Assembly: GCF_000341105.1 (NCBI RefSeq)
Contig: NZ_ANBB01000020.1
Span: forward strand, 1-41,781
Length of the DNA: 41,781 nt
From: Nocardiopsis potens DSM 45234
GTDB lineage: Bacteria > Actinomycetota > Actinomycetes > Streptosporangiales > Streptosporangiaceae
Reading direction: 5' to 3'
Shown here one piece after another: positions 23,626 to 29,989 of this stretch; positions within the stretch are counted from its first letter, which is position 1, and every line of letters starts with the position of its first letter. The translations under genes and the position numbers were made by a program. Under the pieces are notes generated by a model that did no database searches, was not told the DNA's origin, and was given only the letters and a program-made list of their open reading frames with translations.

Positions 23626-25725
23626 TCAGGACTCCAACCAGCTCGGCGGGAGGCGCGGGGCGTCCGGGTGGGGCTCGTCCGGCAGGCCTCCGGTGAGCGG
23701 GTGCAGGGCGCGGCGGACCACCGCGGACAGGTGCGGGTCGGCCATCAGCTCGTCGAGCAGCACCGGCTCGCCCTCCGCGCTGGTCAGCGGGATGCGCCAG
23801 TTGGGGTAGCCGGTGCTGGTGCCGGGCTGGTTCTGCATCCGGCGCTCGCCGACCACGTCGGTCAGCGCGATGCCGACCAGCCGCGCCGGGGTGCGGACCA
23901 GGTAGGCGTGCAGCGCCGCGACGACGGTCTGCGGGTCGGAGACCGGGTCCACCCCCGGGTCCAGCAGGTCCAGCTCGATGAGGAGCCGGCGCCACGCCTC
24001 GACCTGCGCCTCGGCGTCGGCGAGCTCCTCGGCCACGGGGCGCTTCAGCAGCCCCAACCGGTCGCGCAGCTCGACGTGCTCGGCGGTGAGGAACGAGGCG
24101 ACCGGCGGCAGGTCGTGCGTGGAGACGGTGGCCAGGCACTGCTCCCGCCACTCCTCGGGGCGGCGCGGGGCGCCGTCCGGGCCGCGCTCGAACCAGAGCA
24201 CCGAGGTGCCCAGCACGCCCCGTTCGGCCAGGTGCTCGCGCACCTCCGGCTCGACCGTGCCCAGGTCCTCTCCGATGACCAGCGCCCCGGTCTCCTCCGC
24301 GGTGAGCAGCAGCGAGCCGACCATGCCCTCGTGGTCGTAGCGGACGTAGGTCCCCTCCTCCGGGGAGGCGCCCTCGGGGATCCACCAGAGCCGGAACAGG
24401 CCCATGACGTGGTCGGCGCGGACCCCGCCGGCGTGCCGCATGCACTGGCGGAGCACCTGCCGGAACGGCGCGTAGCCCTGCTCGGCCAGGCGCACCGGGT
24501 GCCAGGGCGGCTGCGCCCAGTCCTGCCCCTGCTGGTTGAACTCGTCCGGCGGGGCGCCCACGCTGACCCCGTCCAGCAGCGCGTCCCGGTACATCCAGGA
24601 GTCCGAGCCGCCGGGCCGGACGCCCACCGCGAGGTCGTGCACGATGCCGATCGGCATGCCCGCCGCCCGCGCCCCGGCCTGGGCGGCGGCCAGCTGGTCG
24701 TCGAGCACCCACTGCATCCAGCGGTGGAAGTCGATCCTGTCCCACCGGTCCAGGGCCTGCGCGCCGACCTCCTGCCCGTAGGCGTCGCGCAGCACCGAGG
24801 GCCAGCGCCGGTGGTCCGGCCCGTGCTCCTCGGCCAGCGCGCACCAGGTGGCGTACTCGATCAGCGGCGCCCCCTCCCGCTCCAGGTAGGCCTGGAAGGC
24901 GGCCTCCCGCGACGGGGAGCGCTGCACCTGGAACAGGGACTCCAGGGCGACGCGCTTGGCGCTCCACACCGCGTCCCGGTCGAGCAGGTCGGCGGTGCGG
25001 CCGCGCTCGCGCAGCGGCCGGGCCAGCCGCTGCACGGCCTCCCGCTGCGCCGGTTCCAGGCGGCTGTACTCGGGGACGTCCTCGACCCGGATGTAGAGCG
25101 GGCTGGCGTAGCGGCGGCCCACCGGCAGGTAGGGCGAGGGTTCCAGCGGCGGCGCGGGCTCGGTCGCGTGCACCGGGTTGACCAGCGCGAAGGCGGCGCC
25201 GAGGTCGCGTGCGCTCCAGTCCGCGAGCTCGGCGAGGTCGCGCAGGTCGCCCATGCCCCAGGAGGCGCGCGAGCGCACCGAGTACAGCTGGGCCATCAGC
25301 CCCCAGCAGCGCCGGCCGGCCAGCGCGGCGGGCAGCCCGATCCGCTCCGGGACGATGAGCAGCGGGGCGCTCTGGCAGGCGCCGCCGTACTCGGCGTAGA
25401 GCGTGTGCACGCCCAGCGGCAGGCCGGGGCCGAGCCCGGTCTCGCCGCCGTCGGCCAGCTCGACCCGGGCCACCGCCCCTTCGGGGAGGGGCGGCCGGGG
25501 CGAGCGGCCGGCTCTGGCGACCACGGCCGGCGGCAGCAGCCGGCGGGCCTGGGCCTCCCGGTGCGCCTCCAGCGCCGCCCGCGGATCGGACGGGTCCACC
25601 CCGAGGGCGCCCAGGACATGGCGGAGCGTATCGGCGCCCACGCGCACCCTGCGGCCCCGCCAGTCCTCGTAGGCGGTCGCCACCCCGTGCTCTTCGGCCA
25701 GCAGTGCCAGGTCCTCATCGCTCAC
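23626..25725 (-). CDS. malQ: 4-alpha-glucanotransferase (amylomaltase, GH77)
   Basis: About 699-residue cytosolic disproportionating enzyme that moves maltosyl and longer units between alpha-1,4-glucans. GH77 features are visible: YSVRSRASWGMGDLRDL near the N-terminal third, and the nucleophile Asp in VRADHVMGLFRLWWIPEG. The acid/base Glu is in VIGEDLGTV and the stabilising Asp in VSTHDLPP. An N-terminal extension domain of about 130 residues precedes the barrel, as is common in bacterial MalQ. The start is not settled: GTG at 25725 (VSDEDLALLAEEHGV) fits the usual N-terminus, whereas ATG at 25773 adds 16 residues. Neither has a strong Shine-Dalgarno sequence. The upstream side borders the repeat region. 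No other glycogen or maltose gene is in the window. Confidence 0.93.
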   Translation of the reverse strand: MSDEDLALLAEEHGVATAYEDWRGRRVRVGADTLRHVLGALGVDPSDPRAALEAHREAQARRLLPPAVVARAGRSPRPPLPEGAVARVELADGGETGLGPGLPLGVHTLYAEYGGACQSAPLLIVPERIGLPAALAGRRCWGLMAQLYSVRSRASWGMGDLRDLAELADWSARDLGAAFALVNPVHATEPAPPLEPSPYLPVGRRYASPLYIRVEDVPEYSRLEPAQREAVQRLARPLRERGRTADLLDRDAVWSAKRVALESLFQVQRSPSREAAFQAYLEREGAPLIEYATWCALAEEHGPDHRRWPSVLRDAYGQEVGAQALDRWDRIDFHRWMQWVLDDQLAAAQAGARAAGMPIGIVHDLAVGVRPGGSDSWMYRDALLDGVSVGAPPDEFNQQGQDWAQPPWHPVRLAEQGYAPFRQVLRQCMRHAGGVRADHVMGLFRLWWIPEGASPEEGTYVRYDHEGMVGSLLLTAEETGALVIGEDLGTVEPEVREHLAERGVLGTSVLWFERGPDGAPRRPEEWREQCLATVSTHDLPPVASFLTAEHVELRDRLGLLKRPVAEELADAEAQVEAWRRLLIELDLLDPGVDPVSDPQTVVAALHAYLVRTPARLVGIALTDVVGERRMQNQPGTSTGYPNWRIPLTSAEGEPVLLDELMADPHLSAVVRRALHPLTGGLPDEPHPDAPRLPPSWLES

Positions 25726-25904
25726 AGCATCCGATGATGCCGCATACGGCCCGCATCGGGACGGGAACGCCATGCCCTGTTCCACGCTGCGGCCGGACCG
25801 TATCGGGGGCCCGCCCCGCCCCTCCCCGGCAGACGCCCCGGTCCGCCCCCACCGCTCCGCACCCCGTTCCGCCCCCTCCCGACAGACCGAAACCGCCCGG
25901 ACAC

Positions 25905-26331
25905 GCCCCGAGCGGCGACGGCAAAGGTGGGGGCGAGGCGAAGGCGGCCACCCGGGCGCGGCGCCCCACGGGGCAAGGGTTCAAGCGAGCGGCGAAGGCG
26001 GGAAGGGGGCGTGCCGGCTGGTCGGTCAGGCGCGGCGCCCCACGGGGCCGGGCTTCAAGCAGGCAGCGACGGCAGCGGCGGGGGCGAGGCGAAGGCGGCC
26101 ACCCGGGTGCGGCACCTCGCGGAGCGAAGGTTCAAGCGGGCGGCGAGGGCAGGGAGGGGACCGGCCGGTCGATCCGGTGCGGCGCCCCACGGGGTGACGG
26201 CTCAAGCGGGCGGCGACGGCAGCGGTGGGGGCGGGGTGCAGGCGTCGCCCGGGTGTCGGGCCCCACGGGGTCGGGGTTCAAGCGGGCGGCGAAGGCGGCG
26301 GTGGGAACCGGCCGGTCGATCCGGTGCGGCA
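25905..26331 (+). repeat. Forward array: five 42-nt repeats plus fragments
   Basis: Full copies lie at 25954-25995, 26028-26069, 26105-26146, 26175-26216 and 26251-26292. A truncated end copy lies at 25905-25918 and a start fragment at 26322-26331. The consensus opens GGGTGCGGCGCCCCACGGGG and ends GGTTCAAGCGGGCGGCGA. All copies are exactly 42 nt with no indel but several substitutions. Linkers of 28-35 nt alternate between a GGGGGCGAGGCGAAGGCG-like type and a GGGACCGGCCGGTCGATC-like type. The copy-to-copy distances (74, 77, 70, 76) are not multiples of 3, so this is not a protein repeat. It is a noncoding repeat family of unknown role. Confidence 0.88.
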
Positions 26332-26859
26332 GAGCAGGGCGGGAGTGGTCGGAGCGGTCAGAGGGGGGCGGGATCGCCGCGCCCGCGCCGCCCCGGGCAC
26401 CGTGGTCGGCCACCCCTGAAACCACCACACCCCTCTGACCTGGATGAATACGCAGGGTGATGGCGGGTTGGGGCGCCCTGCGCACCGCGAGAGCACCCCG
26501 GTGATTCCTGAGCGCGCATCCCGGCCCGGATCGGCCCCCGAGAGGCCCGAATCGCCCCGGCCGGGCCGGTGTTCGGGGGTTCGAGCCGCCCGCAAGCCCG
26601 CAAAGCAGGGGGCCGGAACCCGGGAAGAGCAGAGGCGGGGGCGAGATGTCGTATTTGCCCTGCCGGGAGGGCCCACCTTGACCACTCTGGGTAACCGGGG
26701 AGGGGGTGGTGAGGGCTTCGGGGCTTACTACTCGCTGGTAGATGTAATCGGGGTGCTGCGGAGGTGCGCAAGGTGCTGCCGCTCCCGCCCGTTCCCTGCC
26801 GCAAACCCGGCATAGGGGATAAGGCCCCCTGGTTGGCGCGGGCGGGCGGCCCGCTGCCG
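26332..26859. other. Unique core between the inverted repeat arrays, no supported gene
   Basis: 528 nt enclosed by the two arrays. Base composition is less extreme than in the arrays, with AT-richer patches near 26415-26460 and 26720-26755. Open frames run through it on both strands, for example 26444-26815, but none has a convincing ribosome binding site, codon bias or recognisable domain. It may carry a noncoding RNA or be the payload of a small mobile element. I cannot assign a function. Confidence 0.4.
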
Positions 26860-27131
26860 TCGCCGCCCGTCTGAACCTGCACCCCGCGAGGCGCCGCGCC
26901 CGGGTGAGACGCCCGCCCCGCTCCCACCGGCGCCGTCACCGTCGCCGTCAGCCTGAACCTTCGCTCCGCGAGGCACCGCACCCGGCTGGAGTGCCCGGCC
27001 CCGGCCCTACCTTCGCCGTCGCCGCCTGCTTGAACCTCCGCTCCGCGGGGCGCCGCACCCGACCGACCGGCCGGTCCCCCTCCCCGCCCTCGCCGCCCGC
27101 CTGAACCTTCACCCCGTGGGACGCCGCACCC
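26860..27131 (-). repeat. Inverted array: four 42-nt repeats
   Basis: Copies in the opposite orientation lie at 26860-26901, 26942-26983, 27019-27060 and 27090-27131, again exactly 42 nt each. Read on the minus strand they match the forward consensus, for example GGTTCAGGCGGGCGGCGA and GTGCGGCGTCCCACGGGG. Linkers are 40, 35 and 29 nt. The last (27061-27089) is clearly the CCGGCCGGTC type of the forward array, and the sequence after the last copy resembles the other type. Together with the forward array this forms a large inverted structure around the core. Confidence 0.88.
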
Positions 27132-27357
27132 GGGCGACCGCCTCCGCCCCGTTCCTGCCTTCCGCCGACAGCGTCTCGCCGGGGTTCCGGCGGGGCTCCG
27201 GCGGCCGCTCAGGGGGTGCCGGGGGCCGGCGCGCCGTCGTTTCGCCCGTCATGTCGCCCACCGTGCCGCCCGTCGGGCTCGCTCCCGCCAGGGACTCGGA
27301 GCGGCCGGAAAACGGATTAAACATGGGACGACTCTGTGCTTCACTGGGACGGTGCTC

Positions 27358-28668
27358 ATGTCCTATCGCCGTCTCTTCGCCGTGCCCGACGTGGGCTCCC
27401 TTCTCTTCTGGTCGCTGGCCGCCCGGATGCACATCGGCGGCATGCCGATCGCGGTCACCTTCCTGGTCGCGGGCTGGACCGGCTCCTACGCCCTGGCCGG
27501 GCTGGTCGCCGGCGGGCTGACCGCCGGCACCGCGCTGGGCGGGCCGGTCCGCGGGCGGATGGCCGACCGGCAGCCCAACGACCGGCTGCTGCTCGCCTCG
27601 GCCGCGGTGTACGGGGGCGGGCTGACCGCGATGGCGCTGCTGCCCGCGGCTCTGTGGTGGGTCGCGGTCCCGCTGGCCGTGGTCACCGGGGTGTTCCAGC
27701 CGCCCGCCACCCAGATCGGCCGGGCGCTGTGGCCCCGGATCACCTCCGGCCCGACCCGCCAGACCATGTTCGCCGCCGAGGCGACCCTGCAGGAGCTGCT
27801 CTTCATCGTGGGGCCGCTGCTGGCGGCCGTGGTGGTCGGCTTCGGCGGCGGCCGCACCGGCCTGCTGGTGCTGGGCGCCATCGGCTGCACCGGGGCCGTC
27901 GGCTTCGCGCTGGCGCTGCGCCGGGCCGGGCACACCCTGCCGCCGCGCCCCTCCGGGGAGGCGGGCTCCGGGGCGGCCGACTCCGCCGGGCCCGCCGGGC
28001 GCCGCCGGTCGCTGCTCACCGACCCCCAGGTGCTGCTGGTGATCACCGTGATCATGCTGATGGTCGCCGGGCTGGGCTCGATCGATCTGGCCATGGTCGC
28101 CTGGTCCCGCGAGCTGGGCACGCCCGGCTACGCCGGCGGCCTGATGGCGATCTACGCGCTGGGGTCGCTGGTGGGCGGCCTGATCGCGGGCACCCTGGCC
28201 GGGCGGCCGCGGATCCCGCGGCGCGCCTTCGGCACCGCGGCCGGGGCGCTGCTGGTGGTGCCGCTGCTGCCGCCGGTGCTGCACCTGCCGACGCCGTGGC
28301 TGATCGGCCCGGTGCTGTTCATCGCCGGCCTGGCCATCGCGCCGACGGTCGCCGCGGTGACCGAGCGGGTGGGCGAGCTGGCCCCGCCGGACCGGCGCGG
28401 CGAGGCCTACGGCTGGATGACCACCGCGACGACCGGCGGCATCTCGCTGGCCTCGCCGCTCACCGGCTGGCTGATCGATCTGGGCGGGATCGCTGCGGGC
28501 GCGGCCGGGGCCGCCGCTCTGGCGGCCCTCGGCGCGCTGCTCACCCTGGGGATGAAGGTCAGGCGTCCCACAGCGGAGGACGCCGGTCCGCCCACGGACG
28601 GGCCCCCTCCAGCTGGGCCGAGAGGGACAGCAGAGTCGCCTCCTCCCCCATCCGGCCCGTCAGCATGA
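27358..28668 (+). CDS. MFS transporter (12-helix, unknown substrate)
   Basis: 436-residue major facilitator protein with about 12 hydrophobic helices and a motif-A-like loop (GPVRGRMADRQPNDRLLL) after the second helix. It has a central cytoplasmic linker (SGEAGSGAADSAGPAGRRRS) and conserved-looking ERVGELAPPDRRGEAYGW near the C-terminal half. It most resembles the uncharacterised MFS proteins of actinomycetes related to sugar and drug exporters. The ATG at 27358 is listed; GTG at 27352 is also in frame. Both lie near CTGGGACGG. The last 36 residues are hydrophilic and Pro-rich and lie inside the 3' end of the convergent amidase gene. The upstream region borders the repeat array. Confidence 0.85.
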   Translation: MSYRRLFAVPDVGSLLFWSLAARMHIGGMPIAVTFLVAGWTGSYALAGLVAGGLTAGTALGGPVRGRMADRQPNDRLLLASAAVYGGGLTAMALLPAALWWVAVPLAVVTGVFQPPATQIGRALWPRITSGPTRQTMFAAEATLQELLFIVGPLLAAVVVGFGGGRTGLLVLGAIGCTGAVGFALALRRAGHTLPPRPSGEAGSGAADSAGPAGRRRSLLTDPQVLLVITVIMLMVAGLGSIDLAMVAWSRELGTPGYAGGLMAIYALGSLVGGLIAGTLAGRPRIPRRAFGTAAGALLVVPLLPPVLHLPTPWLIGPVLFIAGLAIAPTVAAVTERVGELAPPDRRGEAYGWMTTATTGGISLASPLTGWLIDLGGIAAGAAGAAALAALGALLTLGMKVRRPTAEDAGPPTDGPPPAGPRGTAESPPPPSGPSA

Positions 28669-29989
28669 CGCCGACCGGCAGCCCTTCGGGGGTCCAGTGC
28701 AGCGGGACGCTCGCGGAGGGCTGGCCGGTCACGTTGAACATGGAGGTGTAGGGGGTGAACCGGGTCATCCGGGCGAACTCCTCCTCCGGGTCGTTCCCGG
28801 CGTCGAAGTGGCCCACCGGCGCGGGCAGCGCCGCCAGCGTCGGGCTGAGCAGCACGTCGTAGCCGAGCATCGCCGGCATCGCCTTGCGGATGGCCAGCTG
28901 CAGCCCGGCGGTGGCCCGCATGTAGTCCTCCACCGAGAGTGCGCGGGCCTTGGCGCGCAGGCTCCGGGTGAGCGGGCGCAGCCGGTCCTCGTACTCCGGC
29001 GGGACCGGGCCGGCCACCGCCATCGCCGCCCAGACCACCGAGAACATCTGCAGCATCGAGGCGTCGAACGGGCAGTCGGCCTCCTCCACCTCGTGGCCGA
29101 GGCCGGTCAGCAGCCGGGTGGCGTCCTCATAGGCCTCCAGCACCGCCGGGTCGGGCCGCACCCCCGGGACCGGGGTCGCGCTGAACCTGCCGATGCGCAG
29201 CCGCTTCGGCTCCCGGCGGGCGTGGTCCAGGAAGGTCTCCCCGGCGGGCAGCGGCGGGGCGGTGTAGTAGTCGCCGGGGAGCGACCCGGACATCACGTCG
29301 AGCAGCAGGGCGGCGTCGGCGACGGTGCGGGCGAGCGGCCCGGAGGTGGACAGGCCGATGTAGTCCGGGCGGGCCGGGGCCGAGGTGATCCGGCCCCGGG
29401 ACGGCTTGATCCCGAACAGCCCGCAGACGCTGGCCGGGATGCGGATCGAGCCGCCGCCGTCGCTGCCCTGGGCCACCGGGGCCAGCCCGGCCGCGACGGC
29501 CGCGGCCGCGCCGCCGCTGGAGCCGCCGGCGGAGCGGGAGGCGTCCCAGGGGGTGCGGGCGGGCGGGGCGATGTCGTTCTCGGTGTAGCAGGGGCTGCCG
29601 AACTCGGGGGTGTTGGTCTTGCCGGTCATCACCGTGCCGGCCGCGCGCAGCCGGACCACGAACTCGGCGTCGACCGCCGCGGTGTTGTCCGCGTAGGCGA
29701 TCGACCCGAAGGTGTGCCGGACGCCCGCAACGGGGTCCAGGTCCTTGACCGGAACCGGTACGCCGAGGAGCGGAGGGAGGTCCTCCGGCGCGTCGCGGAG
29801 CACCTGGGCCTCCGCCTTGCGGGCCTGTTCCCGCGCCGATTCCGCGGTGACCGTTATGAAGGCTCCGACCTGCTCGTCGAGCCGGTCGATGCGGTCCAGG
29901 TAGTGGTCGGTGATCTCCACCGGGGACAGCTCCCGGCGGCGGACCGCCTCGGCCTGCTCCAGCGCCGTCAGGTCGTGAATCCTACTCAT
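28559..29989 (-). CDS. Amidase-signature family hydrolase
   Basis: 476-residue hydrolase with the Ser-cisSer-Lys triad. Lys82 is in VPVPVKDLDP, cis-Ser157 in AGGSSGGAAAAVAAG and nucleophile Ser181 in GSDGGGSIRIPAS. The length and the order of motifs match cytoplasmic amidases that cleave carboxylic amides, such as acetamidase or aryl-acylamidase types. The GatA role is unlikely because gatB and gatC are absent. The natural substrate is unknown. The ATG start at 29989 has no clear Shine-Dalgarno sequence, so the start codon is a best guess. The 3' end overlaps the convergent MFS gene by 110 bp. Confidence 0.92.
   Translation of the reverse strand: MSRIHDLTALEQAEAVRRRELSPVEITDHYLDRIDRLDEQVGAFITVTAESAREQARKAEAQVLRDAPEDLPPLLGVPVPVKDLDPVAGVRHTFGSIAYADNTAAVDAEFVVRLRAAGTVMTGKTNTPEFGSPCYTENDIAPPARTPWDASRSAGGSSGGAAAAVAAGLAPVAQGSDGGGSIRIPASVCGLFGIKPSRGRITSAPARPDYIGLSTSGPLARTVADAALLLDVMSGSLPGDYYTAPPLPAGETFLDHARREPKRLRIGRFSATPVPGVRPDPAVLEAYEDATRLLTGLGHEVEEADCPFDASMLQMFSVVWAAMAVAGPVPPEYEDRLRPLTRSLRAKARALSVEDYMRATAGLQLAIRKAMPAMLGYDVLLSPTLAALPAPVGHFDAGNDPEEEFARMTRFTPYTSMFNVTGQPSASVPLHWTPEGLPVGVMLTGRMGEEATLLSLSAQLEGARPWADRRPPLWDA

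Follow-up and report, generated by a model that had tools for sequence, protein, structure and literature searches.

The window element and its layout

The window, the whole stretch of 41,781 nucleotides that was analysed, carries one copy of an element of about 1.2 kb, built from a forward array of repeat units, a core of about 520 bp and an inverted array. The parts of the element, together with the two neighbouring genes, which lie outside it and are given for context, are as follows:

23626..25785, minus strand: left neighbour, a 4-alpha-glucanotransferase-like gene (PF02446, E 9e-107)
25905..25953, plus strand: outer edge of the forward array, a degenerate partial unit (GAGCGGCGACGG at 25910-25921) and linker, seen in the sequence and not reported by the unit matrix
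25954..25995, plus strand: forward unit 1 (this and all other units from sequence and unit matrix)
26028..26069, plus strand: forward unit 2
26105..26146, plus strand: forward unit 3
26175..26216, plus strand: forward unit 4
26251..26292, plus strand: forward unit 5
26330..26850, plus strand: core, about 520 bp, 82-87% identical to the other own copies fetched
26436..26451, plus strand: core motif TGACCTGGATGAATAC, common to families A, B and C (motif search)
26473..26500, plus strand: left arm of the core's inner inverted repeat (window repeat analysis)
26726..26749, plus strand: conserved 24-mer TACTACTCGCTGGTAGATGTAATC, which served as copy counter (core comparison)
26749..26776, plus strand: right arm of the inner inverted repeat (window repeat analysis)
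26806..26824, plus strand: CCCGGCATAGGGGATAAGG, right core edge (core comparison)
26860..26901, minus strand: inverted unit 1
26942..26983, minus strand: inverted unit 2
27019..27060, minus strand: inverted unit 3
27090..27131, minus strand: inverted unit 4
27352..28668, plus strand: right neighbour, an MFS transporter-like gene (PF07690, E 6e-34)

The sequence-only reading of this DNA had reported nine copies of a 42-nt unit, five forward and four inverted, and a 42-column matrix made from those copies finds exactly these nine places in the window. The controls were clean, with no match at 15 bits or more on a single strand of 200 kb of random sequence (GC content chosen as 72%) and none for the column-reversed matrix at 22 bits or more on both strands of 772 kb of real sequence, and the nine copies are thereby confirmed at their positions. 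Because they are recovered by construction, independent support for the unit comes from other loci: at 22 bits or more the matrix reports 485 units in 48 elements of the window's own genome (G000), the nine of the window included, and 275 units in 35 elements of a congener, G004. The left arm of the inner inverted repeat has 26 reverse-strand matches of 86-100% identity among the own core copies scored. ARAGORN also calls a tRNA-Gly at window positions 25483-25569 on the minus strand, within the 4-alpha-glucanotransferase-like gene, and this call is probably false.

For the layout, the 50 own loci that scored best out of about 126 were read, together with 36 loci of G004, and the 48 and 35 with a recognisable marker were used; L016, L051 and L128 were dropped from the count. 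In these 83 elements, termed family A, the 358 forward units are all on the left side of the core and the 402 inverted ones all on its right, with 0 of 760 on the wrong side (230 forward and 255 inverted in G000, 128 and 147 in G004). The number of units in an own copy ranges over 2-10 in the forward array and 1-9 in the inverted one, and three G004 copies are without one array within the stretch read. The spacing of units clusters at 70/71 and 76/77 bp. The earlier observation that two linker classes alternate describes the own genome well, where 185 neighbouring linker pairs alternate against 39 short-short and 14 long-long, but it fails as a general rule, as G004 has mostly long-long pairs (85, with 26 alternating and 12 short-short). 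The near-identical repeats and unrelated spacers of a CRISPR array are not what is seen here: 460 of the 485 own units are distinct and the linkers fall into repeated classes.

A possible stem within the unit would pair positions 13 and 19, where 690 distinct units carry CG 216 times, TG 199, CA 157, TA 116 and TC twice. The two positions vary independently, with no covariation, and a unit hairpin was rejected on this ground. The same result bears on the proposal that the feature is a structured RNA, which would make the copies a family of large non-coding RNA genes and which the conserved non-coding core with its inner inverted repeat might suggest. Against this, none of 4227 Rfam families matches window positions 24000-29000 at E<=1, and the consensus fold collapses when the G004 cores are added, from -114.3 kcal/mol for 48 own cores to -23.3 kcal/mol for 81 cores (L123 and L124 left out) on the plus strand and from -79.7 to -17.7 kcal/mol on the minus strand, with a covariation term that is positive throughout. 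We therefore regard an RNA gene family as highly improbable.

Copy number and placement between genes

The core had been described as unique. In the G000 assembly (6.9 Mb in 133 contigs) its 24-mer is found, with up to three mismatches, in about 126 copies, which divide 64 to 62 between the two strands, and the control has none; the window element as a whole has at least 39 further near-full-length matches there at 76-82% identity, and for the core alone at least 40 copies were scored. Two own contigs that were read whole, C27 and C46, both begin and end inside elements, so the element probably caused these contig breaks and the true count may differ somewhat from 126. This disturbance of the assembly by the repeats is what an assembly artefact or a local duplication accident could appeal to. 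However, with about 126 places in G000, and with the same layout in the near-complete assembly of G004 (3 contigs) and in four further genomes, we give this explanation virtually no weight; a single duplication accident is refuted by the copy counts, and the repeat is far from being a single unique locus.

The copies lie between genes. In those read, gene calling (own codon scoring, with an overlap of up to 250 bp allowed at the edges) placed nothing between the outermost units found, except in L105 of G004 and its ortholog in G000, L216, which have genes between the core and the inverted array; the expectation that the feature does not code for protein thus holds for nearly all copies read. 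The genes flanking the 83 elements are convergent in 36 cases, on the same strand in 39, divergent in three and unresolved in five, whereas a comparison set of 510 gaps over 60 bp, taken from four long stretches, includes 111 divergent ones. The window copy, between the 4-alpha-glucanotransferase-like and MFS-like genes, belongs to the three with divergent flanks.

No transposase or other enzyme tied to the element was found in the roughly 50 of about 126 own copies read. The interrupted copy (L216:6511-8600, G000:C2) and its G004 ortholog (L215:6226-8350, G004:C2) contain an ISL3-family transposase gene (PF01610) directly after GGGATAAGG, then a mycothiol-S-transferase-like gene (PF04978), with the inverted array beyond; in L216 a 99-bp part of the transposase region is also duplicated. 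The ISL3-like sequence GGCTCTTC..., which we take to be the terminal sequence typical of ISL3, begins exactly at the break. Because the other copies read hold no genes, and because of the ISL3-like end at the break, the second gene and the 99-bp duplication, this transposase was set aside as the element's own enzyme and is read as a later insertion.

Beyond the genus, phage and plasmid records gave no match to the window element and viral contigs none to a degenerate 22-mer, and with zero matches in phage, plasmid and viral records an origin from a phage or plasmid was rejected. The same 22-mer has one isolated match in the genome_contigs collection (Enteractinococcus), from which near relatives may have been left out, and this match was judged to be chance. 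A search of 60 genomes with the core gave matches in 13, G000 included; besides G000 and G004 they span only 25-55 bp at up to 47.3 bits, and no long core match beyond the genus was found among the 60.

Diverged families and shared slots in six species

With one mismatch allowed, the degenerate 22-mer has 124 matches in G000, 36 in G004 (two of them only 600 bp apart) and none in the other four congeners. These four (G001, G002, G003 and G005) carry other families in the same facing layout. Core pieces of family B, which are not to be read as loci, number at least 54 in G001, at least 75 in G002 and at least 70 in G003, with eight in G005, three in G000 and one in G004 (best 40 candidates scored per genome). 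The units face the core correctly in all 20 family-B loci, of which 11 show both arrays and nine show one, and in G003 the facing arrays have a period of about 217 bp. At five distinct places in G005, four have both arrays facing correctly and the fifth has none.

Little sequence is common to all of these loci. When the 150 commonest 10-mers of each locus set were compared (20 own, 20 G004, seven G003, six G002, seven G001 and four G005 loci), only GGGCGGCGAC and CGTCGCCGCC, together GGGCGGCGACG, were present in all six. Pairs of GGCGGCGACG lying 68-78 bp apart number 85, 67, 97, 120, 81 and 37 in G000 to G005, with 0 in each control, and among 144 other genomes of the family 66 have one to seven such pairs and the rest none. 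When up to two changes are allowed, the motif TGACCTGGGCGAAYAC of the core is present in 81 of 83 family-A loci, in all 21 family-B loci, L142 among them, and in three of four G005 loci, against a background of 48 matches in 772 kb of sequence that itself contains 24 unit clusters, some of them partial. Given the GGCGGCGACG pairs and the TGACCTGGGCGAAYAC motif common across families, the families look like one diverged superfamily, limited to the genus as far as sampled. At the right core edge ACCGGGCATA is present in 17 of 83 family-A, 12 of 20 family-B and one of four family-C cores. Long hairpins were also seen in cores of families B and C, of the form GATGATCTCGAC...GTCGAGATCATC and, in G005, TATCGCCACGCAA...TTGCGTGGCGATA (L139 of G003:C66; L159, L164 and L172 of G005).

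The gap that holds the window element is occupied differently from species to species. G004 has a family-A element there in the opposite orientation, 66% identical, between flanks that are 94% identical; G003 has a family-B element with facing arrays; in G002 two contigs end in the slot, each carrying family-B units there and one of them also a piece of the family-B core; G001 has a single family-B unit, and G005 has 911 bp with no arrays. An element of G005 (L172, G005:C241:14367-17402) lies in the gap adjoining this slot, which suggests that neighbouring gaps are interchangeable targets.

When 12 complete elements on two own contigs were compared with G004, three slots held family A in both genomes, eight were without family A in G004 and one was unresolved. 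Of the eight, four measure only 68-193 bp, two are taken up by a gene and the last two contain other sequence, of 634 and 678 bp. The empty sites could be deletions in G004; at two of the four that are short (near 22 kb of C27 and near 74 kb of C46) genes present only in G000 are missing as well. A reverse case was also noted, with a G004 element at C1:433959-435055 and, in the same slot of G000 (C27:202873-204332), no units and a perfect 60-bp palindrome.

A comparison of the flanks of the 48 own and 35 G004 loci gave six orthologous slots in which the element has the same orientation. In these the flanks are 88-96% identical and the cores only 67-81%, whereas the nearest own paralogs of the six cores, among the copies read, are 86-95% identical. 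The nearest G004 paralogs among the copies read also exceed the ortholog match in all six, at 74-86% in five and 100% in one, and because of the lower values in five of the six slots we take homogenisation to be weaker in G004. A copy thus resembles its nearest paralogs in the same genome more closely than its ortholog in the other species. In addition, two G004 copies about 0.62 Mb apart share an exactly identical 619-bp core between differing arrays (90% over 1480 bp). As the cores have diverged more than their flanks, and as an identical core is set within arrays that differ, these comparisons point to conversion or turnover between dispersed copies.

It could be argued that such elements are sites of host architecture, whose oriented arrays bind a host DNA-binding or translocating protein in nucleoid organisation, segregation or recombination and which are kept for that role. 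Several observations speak for this: six species retain one motif, spaced 68-78 bp apart, in families that for the most part cannot be aligned; the units are strictly oriented, with 0 of 760 on the wrong side of the core; the 24-mer is conserved; and slots are shared. Slots that are shared with unchanged orientation would equally suit old residents retained for a function, and host use could lie behind the 24-mer and the shared array motif. The sequence-only reading had listed a nucleoid or replication-associated site, a role that the elements could have. On the other hand, eight of 12 slots are without family A in G004, that genome has 36 marker matches against 124 in G000, the orientation at the window slot is flipped there, and the GGCGGCGACG pair signal is near background in the 144 other family genomes. 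On balance we think a host-architecture role unlikely, although it is the rival that we take most seriously.

Probable palindromic targets and proposed mode of movement

A separate repeat family, a dispersed near-perfect palindrome of 62 bp (CGATGATCTTGACGTTGCGG...) with matching changes in its arms, bears on how the elements reach their slots. By exact pattern, 53 whole palindromes are present in G000 (for example C27:74477-74538), 21 in G004 and none in the other four congeners. Palindrome halves pointing inward from outside flank 10 of the 48 own elements at both ends and 17 at one or both ends, leaving 31, the window's among them, without a half; in G004 two of the 32 elements having both arrays carry halves at both ends. 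A half pointing the wrong way was seen once in each genome. A looser cut gives 15 elements with both halves (13 own and two of G004), and similarity between halves is higher within an element than across elements (0.72 versus 0.66, permutation p=0.003). Halves at both ends fit insertion into a pre-existing palindrome. The reverse, in which the palindromes are collapsed elements, would also fit but is less likely in view of this agreement between the halves within an element. No clean target-site duplication could be read at the element ends, which are blurred in most copies, and the closest pair (L116 and L117, 96% over 1.3 kb), read for clean ends, gave no clear duplication either. The genes around 14 whole palindromes are convergent in five cases, on the same strand in eight and divergent in one; the palindromes are possibly terminators.

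The sequence-only reading had listed a REP/BIME-like mobile element among the possible roles, and the mobile part of that suggestion is well supported by the roughly 126 copies, by slots that are filled here and empty in G004, and by the palindrome halves at both ends of a subset. An array of REP/BIME or REPIN type mobilised by a RAYT would share with the present element a high copy number and an intergenic position, more often downstream of genes and rarely between divergent ones. Repeats inserted in palindromes are reported for REP elements (PMC3733652). However, the present units never alternate in orientation, their stem does not covary, and the elements are at least 1.2 kb in size with a conserved core. 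A RAYT/TnpA-REP gene, proposed as a check, was not found in the two genomes with family A: the RAYT domain PF01797 (Y1_Tnp) has no match in G000 or G004, while it is present in five of 14 control genomes and once in each of the four other congeners, where two of the matches are weak (28.6 and 23.3 bits, with a cut-off of 23). A RAYT-driven REP array accordingly earns very little credence from us.

Insertion sequences that target REP palindromes carry transposase genes, and in this they differ from the present elements. The likeness lies in insertion into dispersed palindromic repeats, described for ISPa11, ISPsy8, ISPpu9/10 and others in PMC1525189. MITEs and other non-autonomous derivatives of insertion sequences are, like the present element, non-coding, multi-copy and presumably moved in trans. 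Here, however, the ends are arrays and not simple terminal repeats, the families vary by species, and a parent element was not found.

By anatomy, the closest kind is the eukaryotic foldback element (FB, Galileo, Tetris), with which the present element shares long inverted ends made of direct subrepeats around a middle segment, and dispersed copies that are present or absent between related genomes. FB elements are variable in repeat number and many of their copies are non-coding. For Galileo, PMC3573991 and PMC4168063 describe long inverted ends with internal repeats, and inversions that arise when copies recombine ectopically. The present element differs in its bacterial host, in its 70-77-bp units sharing GGCGGCGACG, in its conserved 520-bp core and in being without a known transposase. 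Among the matches listed, the papers that mention foldback elements in the title or the opening of the abstract all deal with eukaryotes, and in the open-access literature we found no description of kilobase-scale non-coding elements with facing arrays in bacteria.

The explanation that we favour, and consider probable without being confident of it, is a superfamily of non-coding, non-autonomous, foldback-like mobile elements moved by an enzyme acting in trans. The long inverted ends are the arrays of 70-77-bp units, typically ending in GGCGGCGACG, that face the core of about 520 bp; according to this model, a putative enzyme would act in trans on the facing sites, on the core motifs or on both to bring about movement, with insertion at least sometimes in the centre of the 62-bp palindromic repeat. 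Homologous recombination between copies would then change array length, invert elements and convert cores. Copy number, layout and the differences between slots are observed directly, as are different families and opposite orientations in a single slot; the enzyme, the role of the GGCGGCGACG motif and the exact ends of the element we infer.

A more far-reaching version, which we offer only tentatively, is that this is a previously undescribed, genus-wide foldback-like superfamily in which a dedicated enzyme reads the oriented GGCGGCGACG sites in facing arrays, and in which conversion within each genome, species by species, would replace the sequence while keeping layout, spacing and in part the slots, in the manner of eukaryotic satellite DNA.

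Dispersed repeats of bacteria are usually either short, such as REP sequences and MITEs, or coding insertion sequences. In the present genome an estimated 2% or so (126 copies of about 1.25 kb) consists of a kilobase-scale non-coding element with satellite-like behaviour, and the repeats appear to break assemblies, as at the ends of C27 and C46. The six related species form a natural series in which the sequence has changed almost wholly while layout, spacing and one short motif are kept, and this series makes it possible to test for an enzyme or host protein that reads the motif, for the spread of arrays and for gene conversion that overwrites dispersed elements.
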